The notes below the pieces were generated by a model. The model saw only the letters and a program-made list of their open reading frames with translations. It made no database searches and was not told the origin of the DNA. Source: Auricularia sp. M13 (taxonomy: Eukaryota > Basidiomycota > Agaricomycetes > Auriculariales > Auriculariaceae). Taken from it: DNA of 64,000 bases. The DNA is taken from the NCBI GenBank assembly GCA_037042915.1, contig CM073195.1, positions 4,258,240-4,322,239 of the forward strand, given 5' to 3'. Positions 2,295-31,684 of this stretch are shown one piece after another; position 1 is the first letter of the stretch, and each line of letters starts with the position of its first letter. The translations under genes and the position numbers were made by a program.

Positions 2295-2358
2295 TATAAA
2301 AGGTGCGGCACGGCGCGACTTTCTCCTCACTCGGCCCGACTCGCCCTCATCATCTGCT
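2295..2358 (+). promoter_or_regulatory. TATA box plus CTCATCATCTGCT module of the BTB gene
   Basis: TATAAAA lies at 2295-2301 and the 13-bp word CTCATCATCTGCT at 2346-2358, 51 bp downstream. This places the word where a fungal transcription start or initiator would be expected. It precedes the first ATG of the BTB/POZ gene by 113 bp. The same pairing recurs elsewhere in the window, which is the main reason to treat it as functional. Confidence 0.6.
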
Positions 2359-2470
2359 TCTACGCCATAAGACAGTAATGAAAACTAAATTCACAGAGAA
2401 AGAGTCAAGGCACGTACAGGACAAAGTGTTCTGGTCATAACGGCCGTGGGAGGATTCCAGTGGAAATAAG

Positions 2471-3710
2471 ATGATTGTGGACACTAGTTTCGTGGTCGAA
2501 TACTCAGGCGCTTCATGTCAGTGTTGCTCCGCAGCGGTGGTTAACTGCCAGAAGACATTGACCAAGCAAACTCGAGTGACCCGCTTAGCGTGTGTCTTGT
2601 CACCGAAGAAGCCGAAGGTTTCGAGACAGACGCTCAGACGCCACTCAACACGCACTTGCCTGCAGTCCGGTCGATCGGGAGCAGAACCACCTCAGCATCG
2701 TCCCACTACCACCCAGCATCGATCAAAACTGATGTATACCGAAGCTGCCAATTCCGTCGCCAAGAGACACGACGCTCTCTGGGTTGACGATGGAAACATC
2801 GTCTTGCAGGTGCACATGCGTGTGACTTTATCATCGCAGTGCGCGGCCTCACACGCTGCATGTCAGGCTGACAGGATGCTGTTCTGCGTCCACCGATCAA
2901 TCTTGAAGCGGGAGAGCCAACTAGACAGCGACATGTTCATGGTTCCCCAACCAAACAGCGACAATTCATCTGATCACGCCGATGGAACCGAAGCAAATCC
3001 TCTGCCAGTCCATCAAGTCAGCGCCGAGGCTATGTCCAACATTTTGACAATGCTGACGCTGTATACTACATAAGCAAACACTCATCCTCCCGTCACGTAT
3101 TGTTTAACTTTTATGTATATTCAGGGCCGGCGTACACCTTGAGCTAGACAACGCCGCTTGCATGGCGGTTTTGCGCGCTGCACACAGGCTCCTGTTTCAC
3201 AACGTTCAAGACGGTTTGGCCCTGCTTCTTCCAAAACAACTCTCCGCTGAAGAAAGGCTGTATCTTGGGCTGTCGGACTGTGGAGTGGATGACTGGGCGC
3301 CACCTGCCTTTAAAGAGCTCGTCTTCGGCTCTGATGTCCATGGCACCAGCGGCCTTGACGGGATACTGCTCCTCGGTCATGCCTCATGGAATACGATATA
3401 CAGCACGTGCGTGCAGGCCCATCGTCGATGCATCCAAGCTATCTCAAGCCGAAACTCTGCTCGATACTGCGCAAAGCACCTCCATGAGTCGTGGGAGGTG
3501 ATGTGCAGCAATTCTGATACTTCATCTATTCAAGAAAGGTTTCCGCGCCCAATGATCCAAGGAGTGTGGGGCGGTCTCCCGCCTACTTGCGATGCTGGAA
3601 ACAGTGGTTGCCATTTCAGGGACATTGCCGTGGAGCTGAGCCCATGCCTCGTGGAGGAGACAATGGTTGCAGCTGCATGGACAAAGCTGCAGAACGAGTA
3701 TTGCCCGTGA
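2471..3710 (+). CDS. BTB/POZ domain protein, three exons
   Basis: My model joins 2471-2809, 2867-3060 and 3125-3710 (372 aa). Intron 1 (57 nt) is GTGCAC...CAG and intron 2 (64 nt) is GTATAC...CAG; removing both gives one continuous frame. Exon 1 ends with DDGNIVLQ (106-113) and exon 2 begins ADRMLFCVHRSILKRES followed by DMFMVPQP, the hydrophobic core of agaricomycete BTB proteins, in which a D-G-N-x-V-L-Q strand precedes F-x-V-H-R-x-I-L. Exon 3 supplies the helical part, with LPKQLSAEERLYLG (213-226) and VDDWAPPAF after it. BTB domains mediate dimerisation and often link substrates to Cullin-3 ligases; which role applies here is unknown. The N-terminal 100 residues are low-complexity, so the start (ATG 2471, or ATG 2730 in the same frame) is uncertain. 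A TATA module lies directly upstream. Confidence 0.72.
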
Positions 3711-4196
3711 TATGTTTTCGAGTCTAATTCAGCGCCTCGTCGACATGTATGAATGCTGTGTCCACGGTTAGAATGGATCTTGTGCTACATATATGTATGC
3801 GGCGGGCGCCAAATCTTGGTGAGCATCATTGCTAAACATACACGAGACAGGTAGAACTGCACGTCAGGCCAAAGATCAAACGGAACGCGGTTGAATGGGC
3901 GTGCCGCAGTATGACCAGATCGCGCGAGGCTGACAGCGTGGCCGTGAAACAGCAGATAAACAACTCCGGGCCTGCAGCGCACTCGCACTGCCATTGAGTG
4001 GAGGTCAGAGAAGTCGCAGATAGAACGTCGCCACTGGAGCCATGGGTGCAGGAAGATGAGCTTCCGCGCGAGCGAGGCTGTTGGACTGAGATACCGGTAC
4101 TAGGCTGTGATGTTGGCAGTAGCAGACAAAACAGAAACGTGCAGCGCGGTGAAACTACGATCACTGTCAGAACTCACCCGTACTGTCATTAGTACC
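3711..4196. other. No gene supported
   Basis: Short overlapping frames on both strands, none with a recognisable domain. The first part is presumably the 3' flank of the BTB gene and the last part is the upstream flank of the next promoter-like module. Confidence 0.4.
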
Positions 4197-4270
4197 TATA
4201 AAGGACCTCCTTTCGATCACGCTGCCAGTATGAAGCACCACTGACTTGACTTGCACTCTCATCATCTGCT
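4197..4270 (+). promoter_or_regulatory. TATA box plus CTCATCATCTGCT module
   Basis: TATAAAG is at 4197-4203 and the 13-bp word at 4258-4270, 61 bp downstream. About 20 further bases after the word closely match the minus-strand module at 31587-31684 (both continue AAG-R-AT-Y-TCCCTGCTAC), so these two share more than the core. No recognisable gene follows. The solo LTR at 4716 lies about 450 bp downstream and may have replaced or split whatever was transcribed. Confidence 0.5.
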
Positions 4271-4710
4271 AAGGATTTCCCTGCTACGCCCGACAGTCCT
4301 TTGACACTGTAACACCTGAAATCAGCTCATTTGACACACGCGAAGCAGAACAGCCTGCGACTCGCTGCCTTGATTGCTCACCCAGAACGCCGCGACTAGA
4401 GCGTGCAATAGCACGAGCGGTCAGAACGTACTGAATTGGAGATGAGGATACACAGGCGTAACATTCACCCAGAGCGTTGCGCGTCGTACAGCGAGCCTGC
4501 ACGACGGTGCCCTTGCGACGCGGGACAACGGCCACACTCACTCACTTTCGCGCTCTTGAAGTCGCTCATAAACACGCACGAATCAACTCGAGGAAAAGAA
4601 ACACATAAACAAGCAACGAATTCATCAAACACAACAGTGAGATAGAGGAGAGGCGTGAGTCAAGGCGCAGCGTGATGTAGCAGCGCAGGACCGCCGGCTC
4701 ATGACTCATG
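4271..4710. other. No gene supported downstream of the module
   Basis: No open frame with recognisable features follows the promoter-like module before the LTR insertion. If a transcript starts here it would run into the LTR. Confidence 0.4.
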
Positions 4711-4715
4711 ACAAG

Positions 4716-5197
4716 TGTTGCGGTCTTCGTTGGTTCCCTCCTCTCCCGCTGTCTCATTTCGCCGTCCCGTGGTCCTCGCACTTCATCTGGGCGCCCCAAA
4801 CTCCTTTCGCCCGGCCCCGCAGCCCCTCCGTCGGCCCGTCATATCGGTCTCCCCGCTCGGCGAGCGTTTTGGTCTCTTCCCAGGAGAAGGGTAATACGAC
4901 GGGATGTTTCTGGTTTGGTTGGGCTCTATTTATCCCGGGTTTCCTGTCTCGCCGAGGACACCCCGGCGGTCTCTCTCGGCTTGATCTGTGGCGCCCGCGT
5001 GACACCCGGTCGGTGGCGCAATTGGTCCGCGGGCCCCCTCGGCCTTGATTCCGTAGTATATATATCTGGGCCGGAGCCCCCTCTTGTACCTTAGGTTTGG
5101 TCTGGTCTATCATACCGCTTATCCGCTCCTCCCTCTCCTCACTCATCCCTACCCCTCGGGCGTCGTCTCGGAGAGTGATATAGCAGTCACCGTGACA
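4716..5197 (+). mobile_element. Solo LTR (482 bp) with 5-bp target duplication ACAAG
   Basis: The element begins TGTTGCGGTC and ends CACCGTGACA, so it has the TG...CA ends of an LTR, imperfectly inverted. It is flanked by exact copies of ACAAG at 4711-4715 and 5198-5202, the 5-bp duplication typical of Ty1/copia and Ty3/gypsy integration. A TATA-like run lies at about 5053-5066, and a block at 5086-5113 containing TCTGGTCTAT is shared with the second LTR at almost the same distance from the 3' end (84 versus 80 bp). No internal region or second LTR follows, so it is a solo LTR left by LTR-LTR recombination. Orientation is assigned by comparison with the second copy. Confidence 0.9.
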
Positions 5198-5202
5198 ACA
5201 AG

Positions 5203-6935
5203 GCCGGCAAGCGTTGGCTCAGTTCTGTGCGTACGGCAAGCGGTAAGTTCGCGTTAATAGTCGTCGTGGGCGACGACTGCGAGTATAAGGCGAACGAAAA
5301 GAGGTTGGGCACCCGCTCGCGCATGCAAGTCCTCTGTGAGGATGCTTCTGCAGAGCACCAGCGTGCGAGTGGCGGAGACAGCATGCGCGCCGCGCGCCAG
5401 CCATGAGCTGTTGCAAACGAGGCAGTCAGCGTGGAGCAGCAGCGTGGGCACCAACATCCTGCGCGCTCGCGCTCACGAGTCGTTGACCGGTACCGACGCG
5501 GGCTCGAAGCAACAACTTGAAATGAAAATGAAATAAAGACCAAAGATCGACCGTGCGGATGTGCGAGCCTCAAGACCGGGCGTGAGTGGGCGCGAGCCTC
5601 GATGCAAAGCGCTCAGGGTGCGCCAGAAGCTCGCGGTCCAGCGTCCAGCGCGCTGGAAGTCCCGAAGCTCGAAAGCAAGTGACCGGCATAATGGGAGACG
5701 GCGAGCGAATAGGGATAGAGGGAGGTGCGCATCGCACGCGAGCAGAGCGCCACCTTTGCGCGAGGGACGCAAGCTGGATGCGCGCCGTGTGCGCATCAGC
5801 TCGCGTTCGATCGCACACGACCCGCGCGCTCGACGCGGTACGTTCGCAGACTGCCGGGCGATGGCACACGGCGACGTCACAGGGCTGCGCTGGCCACGCA
5901 ACCCACTGCGTTCTCCGGGTAGTGCAGAGTGGCGGGGCCGTCTGCCCGCAGGCAGGACAAATGCCGCTACCGCCGCGGCGCGTAGTACAGCCTGCGCAGT
6001 TTGCGATGCACGGTGCACGGCCGCCGACGATGGCGCAAGCTCATGTAGCCGCCACGCGCAGCCATGTTCGACAGCGCAAGCTGTCGCGACTTCTGCGCAG
6101 CTCAGTGGGCCCATAACAAGGCGCGGCCATGTGCAGACAGCGCAAAGTTGAGGCCCGCGCGCTGCTTCGACGCTGGCGGCTGGCTCAACACCAACTTCGA
6201 CAGCGCAAGCTGCTTCGACATTTGCGTGCGCCCATAATAAAACGCGCACGCAGCAGGAGAACAGGGCTTCCTGCCGCGAGCATGACGGTGTACGAACGAA
6301 GCGGCGCCCGCGCCTGTCTCGCGTGCGGATCATCGCTGCGTCATCCAGCGAGCGCAACCACTGCCAGTGGGTTGCTGATTGTGGGGAGCGTTTGCGGTGC
6401 AGTGGAGTGGGAGGGTTCAGGAGTTGTGAATGGGACAGCGGGAGAGTCAAACGGTGGCAGGTCGAGCCAAAGGAAGCGAGATAGGTGCAGAAGGGCGGGA
6501 GGCACATGCAAGGGCATGCAACGCTGAGCAGACGTGCGCGGAGCGGGACTGGGCGGGATGGCGCAACGGAGGCTCTAGGACGAGCCAGGGCGACATCAGC
6601 AGCTCGCGCAGGCCACCGCCGTGATACAGCGCGTTTGGGGATGCACCAACGCTATCGACAAAGCGCCCGCCATAGCCAGCAGTCCAGGTGACCCCGCCGA
6701 AAGCGTACGAGTACCGCCCTGCCGGCGATGCTCTTTCACCACAGAATGCAGAATGGAATTGGCGAGCAGCAAGCACGGGTGCACGCACAGAGCCGCCGTC
6801 CATAGAGCCATGCGCCAAGCATGACAGCACTGCGACGGCTGCGGGATGTCGTGCATGCGTCATGAGGCCGCGCACCCCGTTCTGACCGTGTCATTAAAGA
6901 CCTGCTGGTCAGACGAACGAGCGCACAGGGCGCAG
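5203..6935. other. GC-rich region, no gene supported
   Basis: Open frames are long on both strands at once, including a 344-codon minus-strand frame at 5473-6507. They are arginine-, alanine- and serine-rich with no domain, as expected when high GC removes stop codons. I see no splice-consistent gene. Confidence 0.45.
6067..6246 (+). repeat. Short imperfect tandem duplication, period about 121-129 bp
   Basis: A 17-bp word beginning TTCGACAGCGC occurs at 6067-6083 and 6196-6212, and a related pair beginning CCCATAA occurs at 6110 and 6231. The order of the two words is the same in each half, indicating a local duplication that has since diverged. Confidence 0.55.
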
Positions 6936-7499
6936 CTACACTGGTCCTTCCAACAGCCAGACTAGATAGCAGAGTGTGGTGTGCGTGTGCAGGCAGATGA
7001 TCCCGGAGCAGATGGCGGTCGGGACTTGGAAGACAAGATGAGCGTCGGAGTTTCTTACGCGCGACGCTTCGCCTTGCCCCCGAACCGCTAATGGGCGAGC
7101 TTCCATAGCTGACGGTGACTTCATGCCGGAAATCAATGAAGCAACTCTTGGTTTACCAGCATAAGGGATGATGGCGAATCTGTAATCATCCTCGCCCTTC
7201 TGAGTTAAATGAATTCCGATTGGTGTACTGTTGTACTGTGGGAACAGTGACACAGACGCTGCAGCTGCCTGCAACCGTGTTCATCTGGAATTTAGCAGCC
7301 GACAAACAGACTGGTGGAAAGTTTGGGAACCCAAAGGGCCCGAGCCGTGGATCCTCCGGGAACGAGGTGGGACATTTGAAGACCACACAGTTACAGGAGA
7401 TGGCAGGTCTGTGAAATGCGAGCTGCTGCAAAGGCCATCTAGTGATGTCGAAGATGTGGTGCAGAAGCTGAGGATAAGCAGATGATGAGAGCAAAGCAT
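6936..7499 (-). pseudogene. Possible minus-strand gene or relic, not recognised
   Basis: A single minus-strand frame runs from 7499 to 6936 interrupted by one TGA near 7276. The distal part (for example GEDDYRFAIIPYAGKPRV) has plausible protein texture. An alternative is a short GT-AG intron of about 40 nt ending CCCACAG that joins an upstream frame to this one. It lies immediately downstream of the minus-strand promoter-like module at 7477-7540, which is the best argument for transcription. The plus strand is also open here, with a WWKVWEPKGPEPW segment at about 7300-7345, so even the strand is uncertain. Confidence 0.25.
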
Positions 7500-7540
7500 T
7501 GCAGTTTGAGGTTTCCCAGTGAGAACCTGTCTTCTTATAT
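7477..7540 (-). promoter_or_regulatory. Minus-strand TATA plus CTCATCATCTGCT module
   Basis: On the minus strand ATATAAG (7540-7534) is followed 51 bp later by CTCATCATCTGCT (7489-7477). It points toward the unrecognised minus-strand frame at 6936-7499 and is arranged back to back with a plus-strand module starting at 7637. Confidence 0.5.
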
Positions 7541-7636
7541 GTGTGGGAGACTGCGGATCAATGCCATCTGACCTGTCCCGTCGCTACCGGCCAGTCATTA
7601 CTGTCTCTGGAATTGAGCATACTGTATCCTAGACAG

Positions 7637-7700
7637 TATAAAGCCGCATCGGCACACAGGCTGAAGTAAAACACTGCATCCACTGTACTCAGCATCTGCC
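7637..7700 (+). promoter_or_regulatory. Plus-strand TATA with degenerate 13-bp module
   Basis: TATAAAG at 7637-7643 is followed 51 bp later by CTCAGCATCTGCC (7688-7700), 11 of 13 matches to the core word. The two TATA boxes face away from each other with about 97 bp between them, as in a divergent promoter. No recognisable plus-strand gene follows; the dispersed repeat begins about 140 bp downstream. Confidence 0.4.
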
Positions 7701-7840
7701 CTGTCTCTACAAACAAACACCTAGCACAGTACACTTATGCCCACATGAATGAAACAGCGCAAAGCGCAAACAGCTGGTATTGCACTGCGGCTGTTCTGAG
7801 CTGACACACTTCCTCATATCATCATTCATAGCAGCGTGAC

Positions 7841-9592
7841 GAGGTGGTGAGGGCCCAGCTACAGGCACTGCAGATACATCGTCATAGCGCACTTGAGCGT
7901 CGAGGTACCAATGTGCTGGGTTTGCTGAGATCCAGGTGATAGCAGCAGTCCACAGGTACTGCCATGAGGAATGGTCGTGAGAGTGCCGAGGGGAATTGAA
8001 TTTCCTGATATTACCCCCCTTTCAAGGTGCGACGCACGACTAAATGCGCGGGCAAAGCCAATGCGAGTTTAGGCCAGGGAAAAGTCTTTGTTAGAGTTGT
8101 CAAGACGCCGCAATGCCCATGCGTAGTGATATGCATTGAGGATACGAAAGCAAGCGCAGCTCCCTTGTGTGACAAGATACCAGCGGTGTGAGCCGCGGTT
8201 TGGGAGTCTTGGAGATCCCAATGACCGGTCAGGAAGTAAAGCATTGCATGAGATGAGCCCAGCAAGTCGCTCTAGATGTTGTGGCCGGTACTTGAACAAT
8301 GCAGCACGGACGGTGGCTGGGCCCCCAGTTGAATTGACAGCAAGGTGGAGCAAGCCACCCTGGAGAGCTTGGTGGCGGCTGGTAAACTGAGACGCAAGCC
8401 GCAAGACCACGGGACAGTGCGGCGAATGCGGATGAACCGTCCAGACTAAATCCAACCCAAGCATCAGCCCGGTAGGCCTGCAATTCACATGGATATGAGA
8501 GACATACGTCACACAGACACAGAAACATCGTATAGGCAGCATAGAGAAACAGTCAGGCAGCATCGGGCGCGCGGGATGGTGACGTTGGTAGTGGTGGTGC
8601 GAGGGCAAGGACATCCTCCGGCTTCGGCCCCCAGTGCTGAGCCGGACTGTACCCGGACTATGCCACGCCCACGCCTATCGCGACGGAACGCCCGAACGAA
8701 ACACGCCAACTACGCGAATACGGATGCCGAACTGCGACCGCGGCCGGCCCGTATATCTCTCACATATGCCGGATAACAGTGTTACCCACAGCCGCCCCTC
8801 CATATTCCATACAGCAGTGTGCACGGAATGGATGAGGTCTGCGGTCAGCAGTCCAGACATCATTGGCCATGCAACCTAGGACACAATCAGCAACATTATA
8901 TGCCGGGAAAAGCATTGCAGACGCACCTCCGAAGGATGCGCGCCCCGACTCGTCACGGCTCCTGTAAGCTGCACCGGACGGTCCCTGGCTTACGTACAGC
9001 TGTCGGGCTGCAGTGCGCTGAGCAATAAAGCTCGACAAATCTGTCCGTGCCACACGACGTAATGCCGGGCCGACGCTGGCCAGACCTGTACGCACAACGG
9101 GTCGCGAGCATTGGTAGCGTCGGATAGCTTCGCGTGTAGCACGCGAAGGCATCGGTCTCAGTCGTACGCGGGACCAGAGTCCGACGCACGTCCCGCTCAG
9201 CGCCGCAGTCATTCGTCTTGTCCGTATCGTCGTCACATCCCGCGGTGTCGTGCTCAAGGACAGCATCTTGAGCGCCGGAAAGATATTCTGCGCTCCAATC
9301 GCCGCCGCGCGTGGGAGTGTGTAGTTTACGGGAGCGGCGTTGAAGGACGTCCGAGACGGTTTTGAACCGCTTGAGCTCCACGACGCAGCGGAAACCGGGC
9401 TGGAGCGAGCTCCATCCGCGGCTCCGGCTTGCTGCTCGCGCGGCAGCCTTGACGTACGATCCGAATGTAAACGCAGTTCTTGAATCGCCAACGGCGACGG
9501 CGATGCCAGCAGTGGGGGCAGAACCGACGGGCCGGCTGTTGTCGTCGCCCACAGAGACGTGAAGACGTGATAGTGAAGCAATGATAACCTCG
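7841..9592 (+). repeat. Dispersed repeat, copy 1
   Basis: This copy aligns collinearly with 16592-18595. Shared blocks include GAGGTGGTGAGGGCC at the left end, a block around TTTCCTGATATTACCCCC, a GTTGTGGCCGGTACTTG block, a near-identical stretch of about 30 bp around GCGACCGCGGCCGG, and AGAGACGTG plus GCAATGAT near the right end. On the minus strand both copies preserve the peptide GPATVRAALFKYRPQ, so part may derive from a coding element, but frames are broken elsewhere. No LTR, TIR or recognisable transposase was found. The boundaries are where I stop seeing alignment. Confidence 0.7.
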
Positions 9593-14737: not shown

Positions 14738-14742
14738 AGATG

Positions 14743-15766: not shown

Positions 15767-15777
15767 AGATGGCAACT

Positions 15778-15874
15778 TATAAAACACGACACCAAATTGG
15801 GCTGTTCCATCTTCAATCCATTCTCCCGTTAGCAGCCATCTCAAGACTCATCTCACGCGCTCTCATCATCTGCT
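15778..15874 (+). promoter_or_regulatory. TATA box plus CTCATCATCTGCT module next to the solo LTR
   Basis: TATAAAA is at 15778-15784 and the core word at 15862-15874, 84 bp downstream. The TATA box starts only 7 bp after the LTR's right target duplication, so the insertion separated this core promoter from its original upstream sequence. A plus-strand frame without ATG follows at about 15880-16045 (IALRYTLHFLGNPDNTVEAL) and looks protein-like but is not recognised. Confidence 0.5.
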
Positions 15875-16591
15875 ACTCGTGAAACGCAAGCATTGCATCA
15901 AAGAGCACACCATTTCCATCGCCTTGCGATACACCTTGCACTTTCTCGGAAACCCAGATAATACTGTAGAAGCTCTTCGTTTCACTTTTGGTGACGACAC
16001 ATACATAAACTATGCACTTCGCAGATGCATGGAGTGTGAACTTTGACTGTAGTGCTACGACAGACACAGACACGAACTACGGAGTGTACAGCCTGAGGGT
16101 CTCCCTGACATGACGAGGTCACAATGTCACAGTTGGCACACAGCTATTAAACGGTGTGCGCCAATCCTGAATATCCATATCCATTGTGGTGTCCGAATCA
16201 CAGCCTGAGTGGCAAAGAAGCAGAACCCGCAGACCCAGCGAATCGACTCACACAAGCGGTCAGCCAGGTCAAATGGGCGCAGTGCAGTAGAATGAGAAGC
16301 GTGCGAGTTTTCTAGTGCGAGTGCTTGATGGCAGTTTAGCCGGAGGTGAGCACAGGCAAGAGTAGCTGGTGCTTGGTGCTCTTCGGGTTTCGGGTGCATG
16401 ATCTGCTCCAAACGGCGCGCGCGGGCATGATAAGTAGCGGTGGGATTTGCATGGTGTATGAACAGCTGGGCGGTGAACCGGGCGTGATGTGAGGCTCGAT
16501 GCTGAGCGTGTCTTTACTGGCGGTGGAGGTGGCTTTTCACAGAATGAACAGGGCCTCCTGAGGGGCTACTCTTTGATGCTGTACCACACAA
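15875..16591. other. No confident gene downstream of the module
   Basis: One plus-strand frame is open and protein-like until a stop near 16046, but has no start codon and no recognised family. After that both strands carry several stops per 100 bp. The end abuts copy 2 of the dispersed repeat. Confidence 0.35.
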
Positions 16592-18595: not shown

Positions 18596-20265
18596 ACGGA
18601 AGAGCGCCGCAACGTTCATCAGCGCCCGCGGGGCCCATCTGCAAGGTCGAAACAGAGCGGTAGCGACGGTGATATACAGCGAGGCAGGCGGGTGGCAGCC
18701 AGGGCGATGTCAATGCAGAGCTGGGGAATCCAGCGCGCCAGGTGCGCTGAGCTGATCGGGCCGTGGAGCGTCGCAGTCGTACGCGCCTGCGCACCGTTGT
18801 GCGATGTGAGCGGGGACGACAATGCGCGCATGTCAACGAGCCTGGCGCGGCTATGATGTCGCGCGCTGGTCGCGGAAGAGCGCTGCGGCGAGCCGATCCT
18901 GTCGCCGAGGCAGCAGAAGTCGATGCACCCGTGATTGCAGCGGCAGCGACTCCTCTTCTGACCTCAGCGAGCCCCGCATGAGGGAAGATTGCAACATTGA
19001 CGCTCCCGGGGCGCTCGGACGCGTATGGCGGGTGCGGCTGGGACCGCGAGGCGACTGCGTGTCGCGCTGGCGTGTTCGGCTTGGCCACGGCCTGGCTTGC
19101 GTCGGCGCTTGCGAAGCTCGCGCAACATGGAGTCCGTCGCCGGATTTCGCAGTGCCCCAATGCGCTTGCAGCCTGGAGTCCGTCGCCAAATTTATCCAAG
19201 GCGCTTGCTCCAGGTGCTGGCTTCAGCGCGAGCGTATCAGCGTATCGAGGTCGAGGACTCGTTCTTCAAGCACAACTGCAGGCAATGAATACACAAAGTC
19301 AGTTCCCTGCGACCTTCGAAGGTCAACCATATCGATTGCTTACTTTGACAGACTTTCAGAGCACCAGAGTGGTGTCATAGGACCACAGTTCGGGGAGAGT
19401 GGACGCCAGCAGCAAATCGGCGACGCGCGGGACCTTGCGCCCAGCTATGGGCGACCACAGATCGAGCCCGGGTCTACGACGCAAGAAAAGCATCAGGAAG
19501 ATATTTATATTCGTCAAAAAGTACAGCACGTACCTTCAAGGAGCGCAAGTGCATCAGCGGCGGCGACCGTGCAAAGACGAGGGAATGCCTGTGCTGCTAA
19601 GAAAATTCAGCCTTCGAAAGTAAGTGGAACGGCAAAATCGCACAGGGGAAGATAATCGAGTGAGGCCTGCACCGCGGAGTGCCTGGGTTTGTGGTCAACG
19701 GCGCGGTCGGCGCGGTCGTCGTGGTTTAAAGCAGAAACGCGGACGCTGATTTCTCGGCCGAACCCCGCGTTCCGCTATTGCAACATCCGCGACAGAGCGA
19801 AACAGTGCGTCGGGCAGCCCTTGGGCAAGTAAAATTGTGCCATGGTTCTTTATTAAAGGATGTCAAACCAAATTTCGAAAAAATTCGAAATCAACGGCCA
19901 TTCTCCCATTGATCTGGTGTCGGAACCCACACACAATCTCCCAGCACCCTCTGTCCTTCGCATAAACAGCAATACAAACTTTTGATTGTGGCTTCCTTTG
20001 CTGAGATTATAGGCGACTTATTTTATAGCTGTTCGTTTACGGTCTTTTGTCTCATCAGCACTTCCAGCCAGGCCGCGCAGACCACAACGAGACGAAATTT
20101 AAAAGTAGACGGCGCAACGAGCAAACTTTATCTCAGCTGCGACGAAATCAGTACGGTGAAGAGCGGCGCAGGAAAAGAGGCGCGGATCGGAGAAGTCCAA
20201 CCGAGCAGTCTTGACCTTCAAACCTCTTGCCTCCAGCTCCGCGACTGCTGCTGTCCGCAGCTCCA
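18596..20265. other. No gene supported; upstream region of the zinc-cluster gene
   Basis: GC-rich until about 19650, then progressively more AT-rich toward the Zn(2)-Cys(6) gene. A perfect inverted repeat, TTTCGAA with four spacer bases and TTCGAAA, lies at 19873-19890 within the AT-rich part, about 380 bp upstream of the gene's ATG; a regulatory role is possible but untested. No conserved frame was found. Confidence 0.4.
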
Positions 20266-21127
20266 ATGTCTTCACCTGCCCGTCCAAATATTTCCACGGT
20301 ACCCGCAGGGAGGAATGTCAGACACGCCTCGAGCGCCTGCGAAAGCCGCCGGACGAAGTACGTTCTCCGTTCGCGCCCATTATATGACTCTGACCACCGC
20401 GAACTCTGCTCTTCCAGGAAATTAAAATGCGACGAGAGGCGTCTGACCTGCGCGCAGTGTCTCAAACGGGGTATCACTGTACGCTGCACATATCACTCCC
20501 TGGTTTTGAGTCAATCTGACGCGTACGCAGTGCACCTGGAATGTCGAGAACGACCGCCGAACCGCGCGCGGGCGCAAGTGTCAAGATTGCGGCCCGCTGC
20601 GCGCAGAGAACACCAGATTGCGAGCAGAGAACGCGGCTCTGTGGTCCTGTCATTCGCGCGGAACGCCCGAGGAGGTGCGTTCAACCTGCCCGGCGCGCCG
20701 ACGCGACCATCCAAACTGAGCTCATCCATCCGCATAGCGTACTCAAGCTACATCGACAGCTGCATTCGAAGGCATGCCTTCCACGGCGCCAGAAGCACTC
20801 CTCGACGCTGCGGCACTCCTCGACCCCGTTAGCTCCAAGCCGTTCTTCACCCAGATTCCGCACGGCAACGCCGCCAGCTTCTACTTCCATCCGCCCTCCT
20901 TCGCCCCCGACCCATGTTTTCTGCAGCTCAATGAGCACACAGAGCTTCAGGAATCTCCTGCGGAGTCAGAGGCCCCGTATATCGCGCTCACCTCGAACGA
21001 CGCACCTGTGTTCATCGGAAACGGGTTCGGAGCGCAGCGCAACGAACAGCTGCGATCCATAGAAAAAAATACATGTCCGTTAGGTTCAGTATTCATTGCT
21101 CTCAATGAGCCTCGCAATCCCAAATGA
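20266..21127 (+). CDS. Zn(2)-Cys(6) fungal transcription factor, four exons
   Basis: Exons 20266-20357, 20418-20478, 20531-20674 and 20738-21127 give 228 aa. Introns of 60, 52 and 63 nt have GTACGT, GTACGC and GTGCGT donors; the first two carry CTGAC branch sequences, and intron 3 removes two in-frame stops. Residues 25-52 show the binuclear-cluster spacing C-x2-[R]-x6-C-x6-C-x2-C-x6-C, with Cys at 25, 35, 42, 45 and 52. The second cysteine, position 28, is Arg (CGC for TGC). A basic linker with an extra C-x2-C (68, 71) leads to a leucine-spaced helix (L74, L81, L88; LRAENTRLRAENAAL), the usual dimerisation segment. The C-terminal 130 residues are unremarkable. Members bind CGG-type DNA sites in the nucleus as dimers. 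With one zinc ligand missing it may be non-functional or altered. At 228 aa it is short for the family and lacks a fungal-specific regulatory domain. Confidence 0.82.
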
Positions 21128-23715: not shown

Positions 23716-23898
23716 CCTCGATCACAAAATGTTAATTATCCTGCGCACCTTCTGCATTCTCGTTATGAGTAAGCCAAAAGAGGTCGTGCAGCGGTATCTT
23801 GAGACCTGGATCACTTTGCTTTGGTGAACCGGCAAGAAGGTGCTTGCAAGGATCTCATGCAAGGGGTCTTCACATTTTGCTTCCGGGATATCACGTTG

Positions 23899-24178
23899 GT
23901 TAGTTAGTCCAGCCGGTGGGCCCCTTACCAAAAAAAATATTTGAGCTGAAAATAAGCGAAATTACAACCCTTGGAAGTGCAGGCAGGAGTTTGAGATACT
24001 CCAGTGAGCAGAAACTCACTCAGGGGCCCAGCCAAGCACCTGAACATTATAGTTTACTGACCTCAGCCTCGGGACTGAGTCCTTCAGGTCCGGATCTGTC
24101 AGTATATAGATCCGGATATGCCAAATCAGGAAGTCCGGAAGCAAATCAGTTAGTTAGTCCTGGCTCAGAGGGCTTACA
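23899..24178. repeat. 250-bp segment between imperfect direct repeats, with hairpin
   Basis: GTTAGTTAGTCC occurs at 23899-23910 and 24149-24160. Each copy is followed by similar sequence ending in a GGGCxxxTTAC-like block and an A-run, so about 30-40 bp are directly repeated at 250-bp spacing. Inside lies a perfect 9-bp stem, TCCGGATCT (24089-24097) and AGATCCGGA (24108-24116), around a 10-nt loop. The segment is distinctly more AT-rich than its surroundings. An open plus-strand frame crosses it but starts at GTG and is not recognised. Confidence 0.5.
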
Positions 24179-24546
24179 AGAAAAAACGACGTAATATCCA
24201 TAATTCTAAATGTGCTGACCCCTTGATCTCATGTGCGCGAGCTGGCACTGCGATGCACGACCAAACCACCTGCATATGTGCGGTTACAAATCAGGTTAGG
24301 AGTTTAAAAACGCAGGTACTTTGTTGTGTCTCAGTAACAAGGTGACCGCTTGTCCTTGTGCCACCCCCGAGCCCATTTCGCACGCTCCCAAGCAGAGATA
24401 ACTTTCTTTTACAGCCACGTCATTGTTCTCGCACTCGCACAAAGGGAAATTTTACTTCTTGGGATGCCAAAATTGCAGCAGAACTCAGTTACTTTCTTAA
24501 TCGATGAAACAAACGCCCCAAACGCCACGCACCGACGCGGCTGGCA

Positions 24547-24634
24547 TATTTAAGGAGCTGCCGTCTCCAGCTCCCTCATCCCAATGCCTCATAATGCGAG
24601 AACACTCTCAGGCCCTCCGCTCTCATCATCTGCT
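24547..24634 (+). promoter_or_regulatory. TATA-like box plus CTCATCATCTGCT module
   Basis: TATTTAAG at 24547-24554 is followed 75 bp later by the exact 13-bp word at 24622-24634. It lies just upstream of a long open frame (24592-25521). The TATA element is weaker than in the other modules. Confidence 0.5.
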
Positions 24635-25521
24635 ACCTACCTCCCCTGCGCGCCACATCACGCTGCTGCTGCACTTCTACGTCGAGCTCACCACCCGCAC
24701 TGCAATGCGGTACACCTGCGCTGCTTCGGGGACAAGATGCCCAAAGAGAACTGGGAGTTTGCGGCCTTTATGCATCGCGCGCGCTCAGGAATCTCACCCC
24801 CACGGGCGATGAAAACGTTTTCAGTGTGCCACGGACTTTCACCGAACCTCCACACTTTGCTGTCGACCGGGTGGCTCGCCTGAAATCGCACCTGGAATCG
24901 CCTACAACACGTCTGTCTGAGGCGACCGAGCGGGGGGCTTGCGCACGTCCGGACTCGGGAGAAATGCAGGATGAATTGCTGGCCACTGCTGAGCTCGGAC
25001 AAAGGATGCGGATTACTCATTTCCGGCACAAGACAGAGTCCTGGAACTCATCTATACACAGCGCGGCGATGACTTCAAGTTCAGACAGCGTCTCCGAATC
25101 CATCGAGCGACGCGGACGAGGGATCAGATGCGAGGCCCATCCTTCAATCGGATCGCCGCAACCCAGTTCGAGGTGTGTTGCGGGCCGTCTTCCAGGGACC
25201 AGAAGCGCGCAATCGCCTGTGGCATATTATACAAGCAGAACTGCATATCCCATGTGTCTTTCTAGGCGTAGATTCAGCGGGATGGCAAAGAAAGGAAAGC
25301 TGCTCTTGCGAGTCTTGCGCCGGAAAGCCTTTGTCGGGAATGTAGGAGATGTTTGGCACGGTAACAATAAGTTTATAAGGACATCTACATATGAGCGCTT
25401 CGAGTGCCGACGGACTTGGAGAGACGAGGGCAGGCGCCCTTGCAACCGATTACGCACAATGAGCAAGTCCGGAATCGCAATATCAGCCGTTGAAAGCACC
25501 CAGAGTAAGCAGACAGTATGA
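24592..25521 (+). other. Long open frame, no ATG at its head, not recognised
   Basis: One frame is open from just after a TAA near 24592 to the TGA at 25521, about 309 codons, in sequence less GC-rich than most of the window, so it is less easily explained by stop-codon scarcity. It has no ATG until 25069. Other frames in the same region also show protein-like runs (VLRAVFQGPEARNRLWHIIQ at about 25180-25240), suggesting a spliced gene whose exons I could not join. It sits directly behind a promoter-like module. No domain is recognised. Confidence 0.28.
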
Positions 25522-26682
25522 ACCTGGGCGGTGGGTATGATGCGCAATGAGGTAATCCGAGAAGCCCAGGTTATCGGAAGTGGAAATAAATCGCTAGTGA
25601 CACGACGCGCAGAATAAGCAGAAGCAGCCGCAGCGCCGTCGAGATGTATGTGCTGAACGATGCGAGCCTATCGTGAGCAAGCGGCGCGTCGGATCTTTTC
25701 TTCCTCGTCCACCAGCCTGCAGGTCGCGCATCGTATACACCGCCTCGCGTCGACCGGTCATGGACTTGTTAAAGGCAACGGCCCTAAGGCGCGCTGCATA
25801 ATTTGACTGGGACGCGACAGGGCATCGCATGGAGGCGCAGTACTCTCTGTCGCTTCTGGTCGTCGCGGCCTCCAAACCCGCGCATGTCGGAGTGGGTGAT
25901 CACCAATTCATATCATGTTCTCCTCATCGACGGTGCGGAGTGTGGTCTGCCAGAAGAAATGACGGTGGAACGCAATGAATGACGGAACAGTGAGACGCCG
26001 GGCGGATCCGGAGAGAATACTCTGAGTATATGACGGTGGATGGGAAAGGGCTATGTAGGATATTCATCGAGGAAGAGAGCGTTCTGCTGATGAGGACGAT
26101 GGAGGGAGGAGCGTCGTATTGACACGGCACGCTGACCGAAGCCAGATGTGGACGTGAAACGGCGGCGATGAAATTGGCATGCGCACGGGGCGTCGTCTGG
26201 GAGCTAGATCAAGCGCCGGGGTGGTGGAGAGCCAGCGTGGGAGGCGAAGAGAGTGGATGGAGGAAGACATGACGCGAGCAGCTGGGACGGACAGTGCTCG
26301 CTAACCGTCCATTGCGAGAGACGGGCCTTAGTCGATGCAATCTGTGGCACAGGCACAACGGCGGGAGCTAGAGCAGCGAGAGTCAACGGTAAAAGTTAGA
26401 TTACCATACGCCCGGGGCAGGGCAAACGGATAGGGGCGTTGGCGGTACCGACGAATGACGGGGCTAGTAAAAGAAATCCGGCGGCGATAACGGCGGCAGC
26501 ATGAGAACAGCGATGGAGAGAAAGATGGGGAGGGCGAAGATGGGGGTGCGGGAGAGGAGGCGGTGCGGCAGTGCGGCGGAGAATCAAGAGTTGGAGTTTG
26601 GGTGTGCTTGGCCATCGATCCACTCCCCGCCGTCCGCTCCGTCAGTCGGCCAAGTTCTCTGTTCTCTCTGTCTTCTACAACC
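25522..26682. other. Intergenic region and rho1 upstream sequence
   Basis: No gene supported. From about 26480 to 26595 the plus strand is strongly purine-rich. It then becomes pyrimidine-rich (TCTGTTCTCTCTGTCTTC) just before the rho1 ATG, as is common in fungal 5' leaders. Minus-strand frames here are low in complexity. Confidence 0.45.
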
Positions 26683-29600
26683 ATGTCTGAAATCCGGAGG
26701 AAACTCGTCATCGGTGCGTTCGTCTTGCCCTGCTTTTTTTCCTGCCCCCCTGCCCCGTCCCCGTCTGCCATCATATCGCACCATGCACGCACCCTGGCGC
26801 CCGCCGTCCGTCCGTCCGCCCGCCGGACCACCGCTTTTTGCGCTGGCCGCCCAGCCCGGGGCCCGTGCTGCGCTCTATGGGCGTGGTGCGGGCGCGGGTG
26901 ACGTGCTGCTCGCTCGCTCGCTCGGCAGGCGCGGCTGCCGAGCAGGCCTCGTTGGCGCCATGCTGCACCCACCACCCAGCGCGGTACGCAAGGCGCTCGC
27001 CGCTGCGTGCAAGTCGCACGGTACCGCCGCTCGTGACCTGCTCGGGCCCGTGGCGGCGGTGCTCGCTGTTCTGCTCCGTCATCCCCATCCGTCGGCGCAC
27101 GCGGCCTGCTCGGCTAGCCTCTCACGCTGCCCGCCGCCTTCCTCGCTCCACGCACTGTGCGGGCCCAGAGCAGGTCTCGTGCAGCTGCGCTCGTTTGTGG
27201 GCGCTGTGAGTCGGGCGTGGCGGCGCTGCTCCGTCAGGCGTTGGCGCAGGCGGCCTGCTTGGCCAGCCGCTCGCCCCGCCCCTGCTAAGCTGCTGGGCGT
27301 TGGCGCAGGCCGGCGCAGGGCTTGTGCAGCTGCGCCTGTCCTCGCGTTCCGTCGGTCGTTGGTGGCGGCGCTGCTCCGTCAGGCGTCGGCATACGCGGCC
27401 TGCTCGGCTTGCCGCCTGCCGTGTCCGCCACGGTTTACGCTGTACGCTTTTGGAGAACCCAGAGCAGGCCTCGTGCGGCTGCGCTCGTTTCTAGGGCCTC
27501 TGGGTCGGCGGTGGCGGCGCTGCTCCGTTAGGCGTCACCGCGCGGCCCGCTCGGTGACTGCCCGCCACACTCTACGCTGTACGCTCTGCGTGGGTCCTCA
27601 TGAGGGCCCATGCAGCTGCGCTTGCCCCAGAGGCCCGCAAGTCGTTGACGCCGGCCCTGCTCCGTCCGGTGTCGGCGCACGCGGCCTGCTCCGCCTACCT
27701 GCTCCGGTGTACGCCCTGAGCTGGCGCGTTCGCTCCTGTGGCTCGCTTGGGGCCGTCCCAGTGCCAGGCCCTGTCCGTCTGACCAGCCGCTGCGCCGGCG
27801 GTCGAGCACGACGTCGTCTCCTCGTGTGACGACCGAGTCCAGCGCCAACGCCTCGTGGCCTATCCCCGAGGTCCTGCGCTCGTCACGGTGCTGCCCCGCG
27901 CGTCGTCGGGCAGAAGGCTCGGCGGCCGGCGCTCGGCCGCGCGTCCGCGTGCTCAGCGCTGATATCATCCTGCACCTTTGCATATGCACGAGGAATTCGG
28001 GCCGGCGCGCAGGTGCCTTTGCACGGCTTCGAGCTGTGGCGAGGGCCTGCTGCCTTCGTGCACTCCGGCTTGCGTAGCGGCTCGAAGATGGCTGATGCAG
28101 CTGTGCTCGGTCCCGGTAGCGCAGTCACTGACAGCGTCTGGGGCCGTTAGCTACTCGCGCTGGCTCAGCGCTCCTGCGTGGCTTGGGCGATGACGACGTC
28201 AGCGTCTGCGCGCTCGGCATCGTCGGCTCTTGCGGCGACTGCACCCGCCCCTTCCCGCGCTTCACCTCCATCCTTCTTCCGCCCGCCTTTGCATCTCGCT
28301 CCCGTTCCCGCTCCCTGAAACACCCACCCAATTCTTTCGTTTAACAAGTCGCCAACGCTCTTCTTTCATTTAACGAGTCGCCAACGCGCTTCCTTCGTTC
28401 AACGAGTCGCTAACGCTCCTCTCAGTCGGCGACGGCGCATGCGGCAAGACCTGTCTGCTCATCGTGTTCTCCAAGGGCACGTTCCCGGAGGTGTACGTGC
28501 CGACGGTGTTCGAGAACTACGTCGCGGACGTCGAGGTCGACGGGAAGCACGTCGAGCTCGCGCTGTGGGACACCGCCGGCCAGGAGGACTACGACCGCCT
28601 GCGGCCGCTGAGCTACCCCGACTCGCACGTCATCCTGATTTGCTTTGCCGTCGACTCGCCCGACTCGCTGGATAACGTGCAGGAGAAGGTGTGTTGCGCG
28701 TTTTTTTCTTCTTTCCTTTTCTTTCTGTTTGGTGGGCGGCGAGCGCCGACCGCAACGTGGGGAGACGAGTTGGCTGCGCGCGCGCTCGGTGTGCGCAGCT
28801 GGCGTCGATGCGCTCTGCGTCGTCCAGCGCGCGCGCGAGGCAGTTTCACGGCTGTCTTGCGCGGTGCGCGCTCCTGGTCGTGCGTCGCATGCGCCCGTGT
28901 GTGACGCGGGCGTCTGGCCGAGCTGGCGCAGACTTCCAAGCGAGCGCGCGCAGGTGTCACGGTGAGCGTGCGCAGACGACTGGGCGAGCGTGCTCAGGCG
29001 TCTGGACGAGCTGGCGCAGGCGTCATGGCGAGCGTGCGCAGACGTCCAGGCCAGCGTGCGCTGGTGGCAGGGCGAGCGTGCGCTGGTGGCAGGGCGAGCG
29101 TGCGCTGGTGGCAGGGCGAGCTGGCGCAGGCGACTGGGCGAGCGAGCGCTGGTGGCAGGGCCTGCTCGGCCAGTCTGCGCGCGGCCGTTGGGGCGCCCTG
29201 GCGCATGCTTCGAGCAGCGGTGTCAGAGCAGCGCGCGCGCGGCAGCGTTCGCACTGTCTACCCGCGGTGGCGTGTGCGCTCATACGCGCGCGCGTGGCAG
29301 CCCGCTGCGCCCGCTGGTCTGACAACGCGGCAAGCGCGTTCGTCGTTCATACCTCAGGTCCGCCGCGCGGCCCAGGCGCTGGTCTGCTTGCGCTGTCGAG
29401 CAACTGTCAGAGCAACGCAGGCGCTGCACCGTTCGCGCTGTCTACCCGCGGTGGCGTGGGCGCCGGCCGTGTGCTACCACGTGCCAGCCTTCGCATACGT
29501 TCGCGCTCTCCGTGTCTGCGCGGGCGTATGGCGCGTGCTCGTCGCGCGGAGCAGGCGCCGTTACGCATGCTCGCGTCGGGCAGCTTACCGGCGTGCCTGC

Positions 29601-30940
29601 TCGCCTGCTGCGTACTGCCGTCCGCCAAGGGTGCGGGGCACTGCGGGATGGCGGCGTCGCGCTAGCTTGCGCAGTCGACCGTGAACGTGCGTGAGCTTGT
29701 GCGGTCCAGCGTGTCACCGCACCTGGGCTGCGCGGGCTGCTCGCGGTTGCCGGCCTGGCGCGCCGCGGGCTTCGTCCTGCGTGCTTGCTCTCGGGCAGAC
29801 GTTGCGCGTCGGCGACCTTGCGTCGTCGAGTCGGGCTGCGGGCGCCATGAGCCGCGGAGTGCGAGCCGCCTGTCTTGGCCGGTGTGCTAAGCGTCGACCT
29901 CGCCCGTCGCGAAGACTTGGACGATCGCGGAGCGCGCGGTCGCGCACGAGCTACGACTCGGCGTGTAGCTTGCGCGTGTGACTGCGCGCAGGTTGGACGA
30001 GGACCCCGCGAGCCCTCGATGGCTCCCGCTCGCCGTTGCTGGGTGCCGTCCCGTCTGCGAGCACGCAGGACCTCGCGCGCCCGCGCTGCCCTCGTGCCTC
30101 CTCGCGCTTCTCCACTCACGCCCTACCCGCCCCGCCCTTCCTTCCTCTGTCTTCCCTTTCCGTCGTCGTTCGCTTGCTCACCCGCCTTTCCTCGCGTTGC
30201 AGTGGATCTCGGAGGTGATGCACTTCTGCCAGCAGCTGCCCATCATCCTCGTCGGGTGCAAGAAGGACCTGCGCCGCGACCCCAAGACGATCGAGGAGCT
30301 GCGCAAGACGAGCCAGCGCCCCGTCACGCCGGAGGAGGTGAGCAGTGTTTCTTTTAATCTCTCTTCCTTCGCCCGCGCAAGGCCTGCTTCGCGGTTGCCG
30401 TGCTGCGGTCCGCACGCGCATGGAGCGGTCGAACGTGCCTGCTTCGGCCGCGCGCTGTTCGCGCGCACGAGCTTGCGTTGACTGGTGACGTGCTCGTCGG
30501 TCGGCCGGCGGCAGGCACGCGCGACGCGAGGGGCTGTCTGCGTGCGCCCGCAGCGCGCGTCGTCCGCGATACACGCTGTGCGGTCGGTGTTGCCGTTGCC
30601 GCTGCCCGCGCTCTAGCGCTATGTGGTATATGCGCAAGTGCGAAGAGGCGCGCAACTTCTTACGTTCGCGGTACACGTTGAGCGTCGGTGCCCCGCCCGC
30701 TAGTCCCGTCGCGCCGTCTTCCCATTCCCCCGTCGCTATTCCAATCACTCGCGCGCGTGCTTGTGCTGACACAGTTTCCCTCCGCAGGGCATGGCGGTCG
30801 CGCAAAAGATCGGGGCGAAGCACTACCTCGAGTGCAGCGCCAAGACGGGCGAGGGCGTGCGCGAGGTGTTCCAATACGCGACGCGCGCCGCGCTCGTGCA
30901 CAAGCTGAACAGGAAGAAGAAGGGCTGCCTCGTCCTCTAG
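26683..30940 (+). CDS. rho1: Rho1-type small GTPase, four exons
   Basis: Exons 26683-26713, 28426-28688, 30203-30337 and 30788-30940 encode 193 aa, the usual length. Introns are 1,712, 1,514 and 450 nt with GTGCGT, GTGTGT and GTGAGC donors. All GTPase motifs are present: P-loop GDGACGKT (12-19), switch [10 protein letters not shown] with T37, DTAGQ (59-63), CKKD (117-120) and SAK (160-162). The Cys in place of Asn at 117 is normal for fungal Rho1. The C-terminus has a basic RKKK run (185-188) and the CaaX box CLVL (190-193), whose final Leu predicts geranylgeranylation and membrane attachment. Rho1 activates beta-1,3-glucan synthase and protein kinase C in the cell-wall integrity pathway (family knowledge). 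The start context is ACAACCATGTC. The intron lengths are exceptional for a fungus, while the coding sequence is intact. Confidence 0.97.
27050..27720 (+). repeat. Degenerate tandem repeats in rho1 intron 1
   Basis: Five diverged copies of a unit of roughly 140-165 bp are recognisable by the order of three words: GGCGGCGCTGCTCCGT, then GCGGCCTGCTCGG, then a GCAGGTCTCGTGCAGCTGCGC-like block. They begin near 27050, 27217, 27361, 27510 and 27650. A large part of the intron is therefore expanded tandem repeat. Confidence 0.65.
28336..28422 (+). repeat. Three 29-bp repeats abutting the intron 1 acceptor
   Basis: Units at 28336-28364, 28365-28393 and 28394-28422 are tandem and nearly identical, and the acceptor CAG (28423-28425) follows the third directly. 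The third unit contains CTAAC (28410-28414), 11 nt before the AG, matching the fungal branch-site consensus. At the same place the first two units read CCAAC. Confidence 0.85.
28916..29160 (+). repeat. 22-bp minisatellite in rho1 intron 2
   Basis: About eleven tandem units of 22 bp (one 23 bp) based on GGCGAGCGTGCGC and a variable tail. Three consecutive units at about 29049-29114 are almost identical, ending CTGGTGGCAG; outer units are more diverged. It begins about 230 bp after the donor site. Confidence 0.8.
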
Positions 30941-31180
30941 ACTCACTGCCGTCACCGTCCTCCGCGTCCACGCCCCATCCTGTCTCGATTCGTGTCGTGT
31001 GTCTGTCTGTCTGTCATGGTTTCTGTCACTCCCCCCCCTTTTCTTTTTCTAGTTTCATCTTCATTCCCATCCCGAGTGCGTCTCTGCCCCTCCGCGGAGT
31101 GCGTCCCTACCCAGTAGTGATAAGCTTCTGCTACATCCCGCCCGTGCCTCGTCGCCTCGCCTCGCCCCTCTCCTCTCCTC
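30941..31180 (+). other. rho1 3' flank
   Basis: Pyrimidine-rich sequence after the stop codon with a short TCTG microsatellite at about 31000-31015. This is probably the 3' UTR. I cannot place the poly(A) site. Confidence 0.4.
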
Positions 31181-31498
31181 TCACTGTTTGCCTCTAATGA
31201 ATCTCATGATTTTTTTGTTTGTTTGTCTTGTTCCGTTGGGTTGGGTTTGGTTCGCGTGTCTGCGAGAGGCCGTCGCGCCGAATAAGAAAGCGCTTGTGCG
31301 GCCCGCGACTGAGGGGGTGGTGTGGGTCGCCGTAGATGAACTGTGCATCAAGCGTGAGGTCGTGTCTCTTCGCACGAGGCAGCGGTTGACATTCGATAGT
31401 TCGTTCAGGAATATCTGTACAAGAAGACCTGTTTGTGTATCTTGGTCCCTAAGCCAGTAAGTGAACTGCCAACGACCTTCATTCGCTGCGCGGGCCAC
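31181..31498 (-). other. Minus-strand open frame convergent with rho1
   Basis: A 105-codon minus-strand frame without ATG (it would start at GTG) contains a plausible stretch, QTGLLVQIFLNELSNVNRCL. It lies downstream of the minus-strand promoter-like module at 31587-31684 and ends about 240 bp from the rho1 stop codon, so any transcript would converge on rho1. No family is recognised and it may be non-coding. Confidence 0.22.
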
Positions 31499-31586
31499 GA
31501 ATGCCTTGCACCACCGGCCACTCGTGTGCTTCGGATGGTGAAGAGACTATTTGTGTGCGTATCACCGGTGTAGCAGGGAGATTCTT

Positions 31587-31684
31587 AGCAGATGATGAGA
31601 GCGTGACTCGGAGGAGAGTCGGGGATGCTGAGAGTGTGAGCAGTGCGTGGTGCTGGGTGGGTGAGCGAACAGTTGTGCTTTATA
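31587..31684 (-). promoter_or_regulatory. Minus-strand TATA plus CTCATCATCTGCT module
   Basis: On the minus strand TATAAAG (31684-31678) precedes CTCATCATCTGCT (31599-31587) by 85 bp. About 20 bases after the core match the plus-strand module at 4197-4270 with only a few transitions, indicating shared ancestry rather than chance. It points toward rho1. Confidence 0.5.

Follow-up and report, generated by a model that had tools for sequence, protein, structure and literature searches.

The DNA analysed here (the window) covers the final 64 kb of contig C3 of Auricularia sp. M13 (positions 4,258,240-4,322,239), in a genome of 52.1 Mb in 14 contigs. It contains six exact copies of a 13-base word, CTCATCATCTGCT, on both strands and a seventh copy that agrees with the word at 11 of the 13 positions, all of them at the places and on the strands given in an earlier note on this DNA. 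A TATA-like box is located upstream of every copy on the same strand, as that note had also stated, at a distance of 50-85 bp (Table 1). When up to two mismatches are allowed, the window contains seven matches to the word versus a mean of 2.02 in shuffled sequences, and seven matches are reached in none of 100 shuffles. The orientation and TATA spacing also hold genome-wide, and the observation in the note is confirmed. The variant copy at 7688 scores below the profile cut-off of 9 and is assigned to the group by its TATA spacing and its pairing with the copy at 7489. The copies at 4258 and 31599 had been said to share about 20 more bases; 17 of the 20 bases that follow the word are identical when counted by eye, and beyond them the identity is 68% over 140 bp.

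Table 1. TATA boxes and copies of the 13-base word in the window
Feature	Position	Strand	Remark
TATA box TATAAAAG	2295..2302	+	51 bp upstream of the word at 2346
CGCC-CTCATCATCTGCT-TC	2342..2360	+	exact 13-mer at 2346-2358
TATA box TATAAAGG	4197..4204	+	61 bp upstream of the word at 4258
CACT-CTCATCATCTGCT-AA	4254..4272	+	exact 13-mer at 4258-4270
TATA-like box TATAAGAA	7532..7539	-	50 bp upstream of the minus-strand word at 7489
TGCT-CTCATCATCTGCT-TA	7475..7493	-	exact 13-mer at 7477-7489; left partner of the divergent pair with 7688
TATA box TATAAAGC	7637..7644	+	51 bp upstream of the variant word at 7688
Variant CTCAGCATCTGCC (11/13)	7688..7700	+	right partner of the divergent pair with 7489
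TATA box TATAAAAC	15778..15785	+	84 bp upstream of the word at 15862
CGCT-CTCATCATCTGCT-AC, consensus copy	15858..15876	+	13-mer at 15862-15874
TATA-like box TATTTAAG	24547..24554	+	75 bp upstream of the word at 24622
CGCT-CTCATCATCTGCT-AC, consensus copy	24618..24636	+	13-mer at 24622-24634
TATA box TATAAAGC	31677..31684	-	85 bp upstream of the minus-strand word at 31599
CGCT-CTCATCATCTGCT-AA	31585..31603	-	exact 13-mer at 31587-31599

The word occurs 74 times as an exact copy in the 52-Mb genome, and its reversed control does not occur. With one mismatch, 241 matches to the word are found versus 49 for the control, and with up to three mismatches, 196 matches to the 18-mer are found versus 44 for the control. 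From these counts minus the controls, the total number of units is estimated to be some 100-200. The motif is larger than 13 bp: the 13-mer is the core of a sharp-edged element, CGCT-CTCATCATCTGCT-A[C/T]. Removal of the segmental duplicates L020-L023 and L057 from the 74 exact sites leaves 69 sites, and further removal of the tandem duplicate L044-2001 leaves 68. Among the 69 sites, the four positions before the word are occupied by C in 64, G in 56, C in 64 and T in 49, and the two positions after it by A in 49 and by C or T in 54. The logo is near background outside the motif, apart from an abundance of C at about -22 to -8 before the word. A profile scan of the fetched loci detects further near-copies beside the known sites; 17 of these were aligned, and 13 of the 17 have a TATA-like box in range. 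No occurrence of the exact word was found in the literature searched.

The motif is accompanied by a TATA box throughout the genome. A TATA-like box is present 40-110 bp upstream on the same strand at 58 of the 68 sites (median distance 60.5 bp), versus 2-11 of 68 in 12 other sense windows and 3-12 of 68 on the opposite strands of those windows. The strict form, TATAWA, is present at 45 of the 68 sites versus 2-4 of 68 in six control windows. The pattern TATAWA-N(40-70)-CTCATCNTCTGC gives 45 matches in the genome (two sites are listed twice), and its control gives none. The half-motif pattern TATAAA-N(36-66)-ATCTGCTA is found at 31 places in the genome, and all 31 have a recognisable 5' half, which is CTCATC at 22 places, CTCGTC at four (two of them identical stretches), CTCACC, CCCATC, TTCATC and ATCATC at one each, and lacks 3 bp at one. 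A sense-strand TATA box at a restricted distance, as in a TATA-directed core promoter of RNA polymerase II, is thus found at most sites. The genome-wide search proposed in the note gives results that support its suggestion of a core-promoter or 5'-leader element.

An E-box-like sequence, CAGATG/CATCTG, shows modest enrichment at a distance of 20-60 bp upstream of the TATA box, and CATCTG is also present within the motif core. Scores of upstream motifs obtained by expectation maximization exceeded those of shuffled controls in every region tested (30 starts versus 12) and were not used alone. Three copies of the motif at L036 and L037 (contig C4, 750-811 kb) have no TATA-like box; two of them are 132 bp apart, and about 100 bp after the word is 69% similar. 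These copies are perhaps a separate subclass.

The arrangement was examined with 102 located sites, which consist of the 74 exact sites, 27 non-exact sites among 100 shown of the 196 places, and the window copy at 7688. Neighbours less than 3 kb apart form 11 divergent pairs (179-504 bp), 19 tandem pairs (132-2843 bp, 12 of them at 495-888 bp) and 3 convergent pairs (595, 696 and 2383 bp). Half of the sites, 51 of the 102, are located within 75 kb of a contig end versus 3.8 expected over 13 contigs, an expectation that is a yardstick only, as clustered sites are not independent of one another. Contig ends do not always correspond to chromosome ends. Examination of 20 of the 28 contig ends reveals (TTAGG)n-type telomere repeats at three, the satellite of the window at seven and a short match to the satellite at an eighth. 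This satellite is a tandem array at 33232-64000 of the window, with about 20 copies of a 1.56-kb unit, of which 300-base pieces are 69-100% identical and many 99-100%. Matches to the unit are also present at the start of contigs C4 and C13, at the end of C5 and C10 and at both ends of C7, and this recurrence indicates that the unit is a shared chromosome-end satellite. Because the window has the satellite in common with other contig ends, its position is likely to be subtelomeric.

The telomere repeats at L092, L096 and L097 (the ends of C2, C4 and C5) are (TTAGG)n or (CCTAA)n, with a unit of five bases. TTAGGG is the usual telomere repeat of fungi. A literature search for TTAGG telomeres together with basidiomycetes or fungi gave a match that concerned an ant.

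The sequences that follow the motif are mostly unrelated. In all-against-all comparisons of the downstream 2 kb by blastp and blastn, strong similarity is detected only in overlapping or duplicated loci (for blastp, among the matches listed), in addition to partial matches. The blastp links among the matches listed connect loci that overlap or are duplicated, and exceptions such as L052/L053 are rare. Partial matches at the DNA level are detected downstream between L044 and L056 (67% over 439 bp), and upstream between L034 and L051 (63% over 221 bp), L043 and L058 (71% over 167 bp) and L014 and L042 (70% over 87 bp). The comparison of downstream sequences, proposed in the note as a check for a shared gene family, does not reveal such a family. 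The idea that the word is the 5' end of one transposon or one gene family is likewise unsupported, as most pairs of sites share nothing detectable beyond the motif and the TATA spacing ranges from 40 to 110 bp. Since the units mostly have no common body sequence, it is the promoter and the leader tag that would be kept, and not the product.

One of the duplicated regions lies on contig C2, at 171-298 kb and 509-556 kb (L016-L023), with four motif sites in each copy. Its identity per 50-bp bin is 80-100% for L018/L022 and 64-100% for L019/L023, and the other two pairs are more broken. The first ATG after the motif is located at +10 to +19 in 15 of the 69 sites and is spread to about +210 in the others. 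Inverted repeats scoring at least 13 are present downstream at 3 of 69 sites, upstream at 3 of 69 and at the motif at none, and in 0 of 40 shuffled sequences. At 2305-2358 of L032, about 640 bp after a motif copy, two 21-bp arms form a perfect inverted repeat around a loop of 12 bases. No enrichment of T-run terminators was seen downstream of the motif.

Transposons, among them elements able to capture unrelated DNA, could account for the motif as terminal inverted repeats or as a 5' end, and the divergent pairs do resemble outward-facing inverted repeats 179-504 bp apart. This explanation is extremely improbable, because many copies are single or in tandem, the TATA spacing is variable and the interiors are mostly unrelated, and because the 148 downstream open reading frames (ORFs) that were scanned contain no reverse transcriptase, integrase or transposase domain. 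Paired ends with a shared interior or a transposase, which characterize a DNA transposon with terminal inverted repeats, were not found. With a 6-kb query from the window, the sole match other than the query itself was a separate repeat of 482 bp, with 40 of 194 candidates scored and other similar places possible.

A different explanation is that promoters are linked to changing downstream sequences at the motif, which would then act as a recombination or capture junction like the conserved recombination junction element (CRJE) of the msg genes of Pneumocystis. In that fungus, a single-copy promoter with the upstream conserved sequence (UCS) and the CRJE serves about 80 related msg-I protein genes (PMC10622565). 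The L018 and L019 sequences are consistent with such a junction: they have 68% similarity across 835 bp upstream, cease to align immediately after the word, and show homology again farther downstream at shifted positions. The similarity of L009 and L010 is also confined to the upstream side (76% over 120 bp up to the word, with nothing detected downstream), and the sites are clustered near contig ends. Like the UCS/CRJE, the motif is a short conserved element that starts many subtelomeric units and is followed by variable sequence (PMC10622565). However, only two or three such pairs exist, and most sites have their own TATA box and unrelated upstream DNA, whereas msg-I has one promoter and homologous genes (PMC10622565). 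In contrast to the UCS/CRJE system (PMC10622565), the sequences after the motif are for the most part unrelated and non-coding, and rapid decay of unconstrained transcript bodies would give the same pattern. The boundaries in L018/L019 and L009/L010 therefore reflect either an unconstrained transcript body or sequence exchange at the word, and a general role of the motif as a junction is very doubtful. A single expressed promoter with homologous coding genes was not found; 58 of the 68 sites have a TATA box of their own.

At most sites, no coding signal is detected downstream of the motif. In a codon log-odds analysis, 3.8% of the downstream sense bases are scored as coding at a threshold of 0.25 and 8.3% at a threshold of 0.15, and the antisense values are 5.7% and 10.6%. 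The sense values at MFS loci are 30% and 37%, respectively. The ten MFS comparison loci represent nine places, as L067 and L068 overlap; L061, L063, L066, L067 and L068 were kept out of the training of the codon model, and the kinase stretch L083 was dropped, as its translation does not look like a kinase. The median 3-periodicity is 1.01 for 204 downstream windows, 9.64 for 67 exon windows, 2.22 for the MFS loci, 0.88 for shuffled sequences and 1.06 for the first 33 kb of the window. Many post-motif indels of a length not divisible by 3 separate the duplicates L016/L020 and L040/L057, and one indel of 5 bp separates L017 and L021. Up to three of the longest ORFs of at least 75 aa were taken per site, giving 191 ORFs, and 148 of them were scanned with Pfam. 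Seven families match, each in one ORF: DSPc strongly (1.2e-28), five phosphatase relatives, and DUF4684 (4.5e-4). The window gives no match to Rfam at gathering scores.

The earlier note had placed a real BTB gene after one of the copies, and this gene is not found. The ORF through the copy at 24622 has no Pfam match, and the 17 BTB matches of the genome are all on contigs other than that of the window; as these searches were read exon by exon, a BTB domain divided among very short exons could be missed. None of the 148 downstream ORFs matches BTB at E <=0.01, and a promoter of a BTB gene family, which should have a BTB domain downstream, is not indicated.

A few sites do precede coding-like sequence. 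It is conceivable that the sites are promoters of ordinary fast-evolving protein genes, for orphan or small secreted proteins, that escape the coding tests. Such genes are often located in subtelomeres. A long constrained frame follows the motif at L019/L023, one of the 148 ORFs has the strong DSPc phosphatase match, and strongly periodic windows are present within 1.5 kb of some internal sites. We consider this explanation unlikely for the group as a whole, because the codon log-odds, the 3-periodicity, the frame-breaking indels and the scarcity of Pfam matches argue against it at most sites. Taken together, the coding tests on one side and the L019/L023 frame and the periodic windows of internal sites on the other suggest that the downstream units mostly look non-coding, especially near contig ends, but not all of them.

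The putative promoter-plus-leader module is real and genome-wide, is located mostly before non-coding DNA, and is concentrated near contig ends. With considerable reserve, we consider that the sites are probably promoter modules for RNA polymerase II that serve short non-coding units with one transcribed-leader element in common. In this model, the TATA box would set the start of transcription about 30-40 bp downstream, and the 20-nt element, CGCTCTCATCATCTGCTA[C/T], would then be found on the sense strand, either at the very beginning of the transcript or no more than several tens of nucleotides into it. A short and mostly non-coding transcript would follow, and the tandem spacing suggests a unit length of about 0.5-0.9 kb. 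The element would most likely be bound by one sequence-specific factor, either as a downstream core-promoter element or as an RNA tag in the leader, and this common factor would place some 100-200 units under common control.

Transcription may alternatively start inside the 20-mer, as in the scanning yeasts, so that the 20-mer itself is the initiator and a role at the RNA level is unnecessary. This possibility deserves attention but is somewhat unlikely. The distance of 40-110 bp between the TATA box and the word fits the scanning range of 40-120 bp (PMC11302930), and the C-rich positions at about -22 to -8 before the word are also consistent with it. However, Cryptococcus, which is a basidiomycete, uses -40 to -35 (PMC11302930), a fixed sequence of 20 bases would make an unusually long initiator, and CATCT is modestly enriched 20-40 bp after the TATA box (11 in 58 sites versus 0-8 in other bins), where a classic start would fall. 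Cryptococcus initiates transcription in the classic way, its TATA box being 35-40 bp upstream of the start, in contrast to the scanning yeasts (PMC11302930). Because of this TATA distance and the position of CATCT, a downstream core-promoter element or leader tag is preferred over an initiator, with moderate confidence.

The proposed modules would resemble the TATA-containing sharp promoters of Cryptococcus in that initiation in a basidiomycete is directed by TATA, and would differ from them in the 20-nt downstream element, since no mention of one of the present sequence was found in the accessible part of that report (PMC11302930). A further comparison is offered by the core promoter elements of the oomycete Phytophthora, in which INR+FPR is 16-19 nt long and DPEP is located about 25 nt downstream of the start (PMC3599244). 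The present element is similarly long, oriented and fixed in position, probably at or just downstream of the start, and is similarly confined to a subset of promoters (PMC3599244). It differs in being tied to a TATA box and gene-poor DNA, whereas the oomycete elements are at protein genes with no TATA detected (PMC3599244), and its sequence differs from the DPEP pattern SAASMMS (PMC3599244). With a TATA box present and a motif different from the DPEP pattern, the element is not assigned to the oomycete group.

Knowledge of core promoters in fungi comes mainly from protein genes. Nothing fitting was found in the literature searched for fungal promoter elements or subtelomeric non-coding RNA, and the module looks undescribed. 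If the proposal of non-coding promoter modules is correct, the organism would have a class of promoters reserved for non-coding transcription in gene-poor DNA close to its chromosome ends. The combination of one motif and one presumed binding factor would make the function of subtelomeric non-coding transcription testable, and the motif would provide a sequence handle for seeking such units in other genomes.

The 20-nt site could instead be read in the leader by a small RNA or an RNA-binding protein that feeds RNA interference or heterochromatin, in a fungal counterpart of the plant phased small interfering RNA (PHAS) loci or another type of leader-tag silencing. About 100-200 mostly unrelated, clustered and largely subtelomeric non-coding units would then share only the leader site, and the divergent and convergent pairs could yield double-stranded RNA. 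In rice, 529 of 892 loci of 21-nt phased small interfering RNAs share one 22-nt recognition site of miR2118 near one end (PMC4788661), and the present units are like them in being many clustered non-coding loci with one short motif (PMC4788661). Clustered loci with one motif of 20-22 nt, non-coding for most sites but not for all, are indeed found, and the genome encodes the Argonaute and RNA-dependent RNA polymerase (RdRP) components, with 13 Piwi-domain and 19 RdRP-domain matches counted exon by exon. Predicted openness is 0.56 at the motif, equal to that of the leader before it and slightly above the values of 0.49 and 0.46 after it. At the 74 exact sites, no complementary arm that would form a trigger hairpin rises above the shuffled level within a distance of 150-170 bp, and no seed-like asymmetry is seen in the 17 substitutions of 17 variant copies. 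The rice loci belong to a plant system, and the present units appear to differ from them in these two respects (PMC4788661). This silencing role seems quite unlikely.

Several points weigh against the proposal that the sites are promoter modules of mostly non-coding units. A TATA-like box is absent from the range at 10 of the 68 sites, and on the opposite strand in the focal window one is present at 23 of 68, which exceeds the 3-12 of the other windows. The reversed control of the half-motif pattern still yields 15 matches. The loci were picked by the exact word, so that invariance within the word is by construction and is relaxed only in the profile scan and the half-motif search. The variants among the 102 sites were not filtered for a TATA box, and some of them may be chance matches; the non-independence of clustered sites noted above also counts here. 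Contigs C1 (both ends) and C10 (start) are rich in sites and have neither a telomere repeat nor a full satellite match in 400 bp. Training of the codon model drew on only 24 kinase and MFS exon stretches, and orphan genes with odd codon use or tiny exons may escape it. The L016-L023 group is near coding sequence, and in the long frame after L019/L023 third positions account for 45 of 72 substitutions over +800 to +2000 and 5 of 15 over +356 to +800. This frame looks F-box/LRR-like by eye, and Pfam gives no match for L019. The periodicity cut-off is passed by 11% of windows at internal sites versus 2% at subtelomeric sites.

Other features were observed in the window and at comparison loci. Further Pfam scans covered 20 of the 125 window ORFs of at least 115 aa and another 10 ORFs, including four from the window, and gave no indication of BTB or another shared gene family. 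The ORF at 20215-20829 of the window matches Zn2Cys6 with an E value of 8.2e-5, a match that passes the curated cut-off, and is the sole such ORF among the 20 scanned. The only windows in the first 33 kb with a 3-periodicity above 6 are located at 28351-28800 and adjoin tandem repeats of 22 and 29 bp. The gaps between exon matches are about 40-75 bp, which fits a fungus, as does the general appearance of the proteins. A 5.8S rRNA was sought and not found. The kinase exons L069 and L074 (contig C11, 2.44 Mb and 6 kb) have the same first 50 residues, the former being internal and the latter 6 kb from a contig end, and are perhaps a recent copy. The 482-bp dispersed repeat lies at about 4716-5198 of the window, between two copies of the module; it has at least 40 further copies in the genome at 91-97% identity and is perhaps a solo long terminal repeat.

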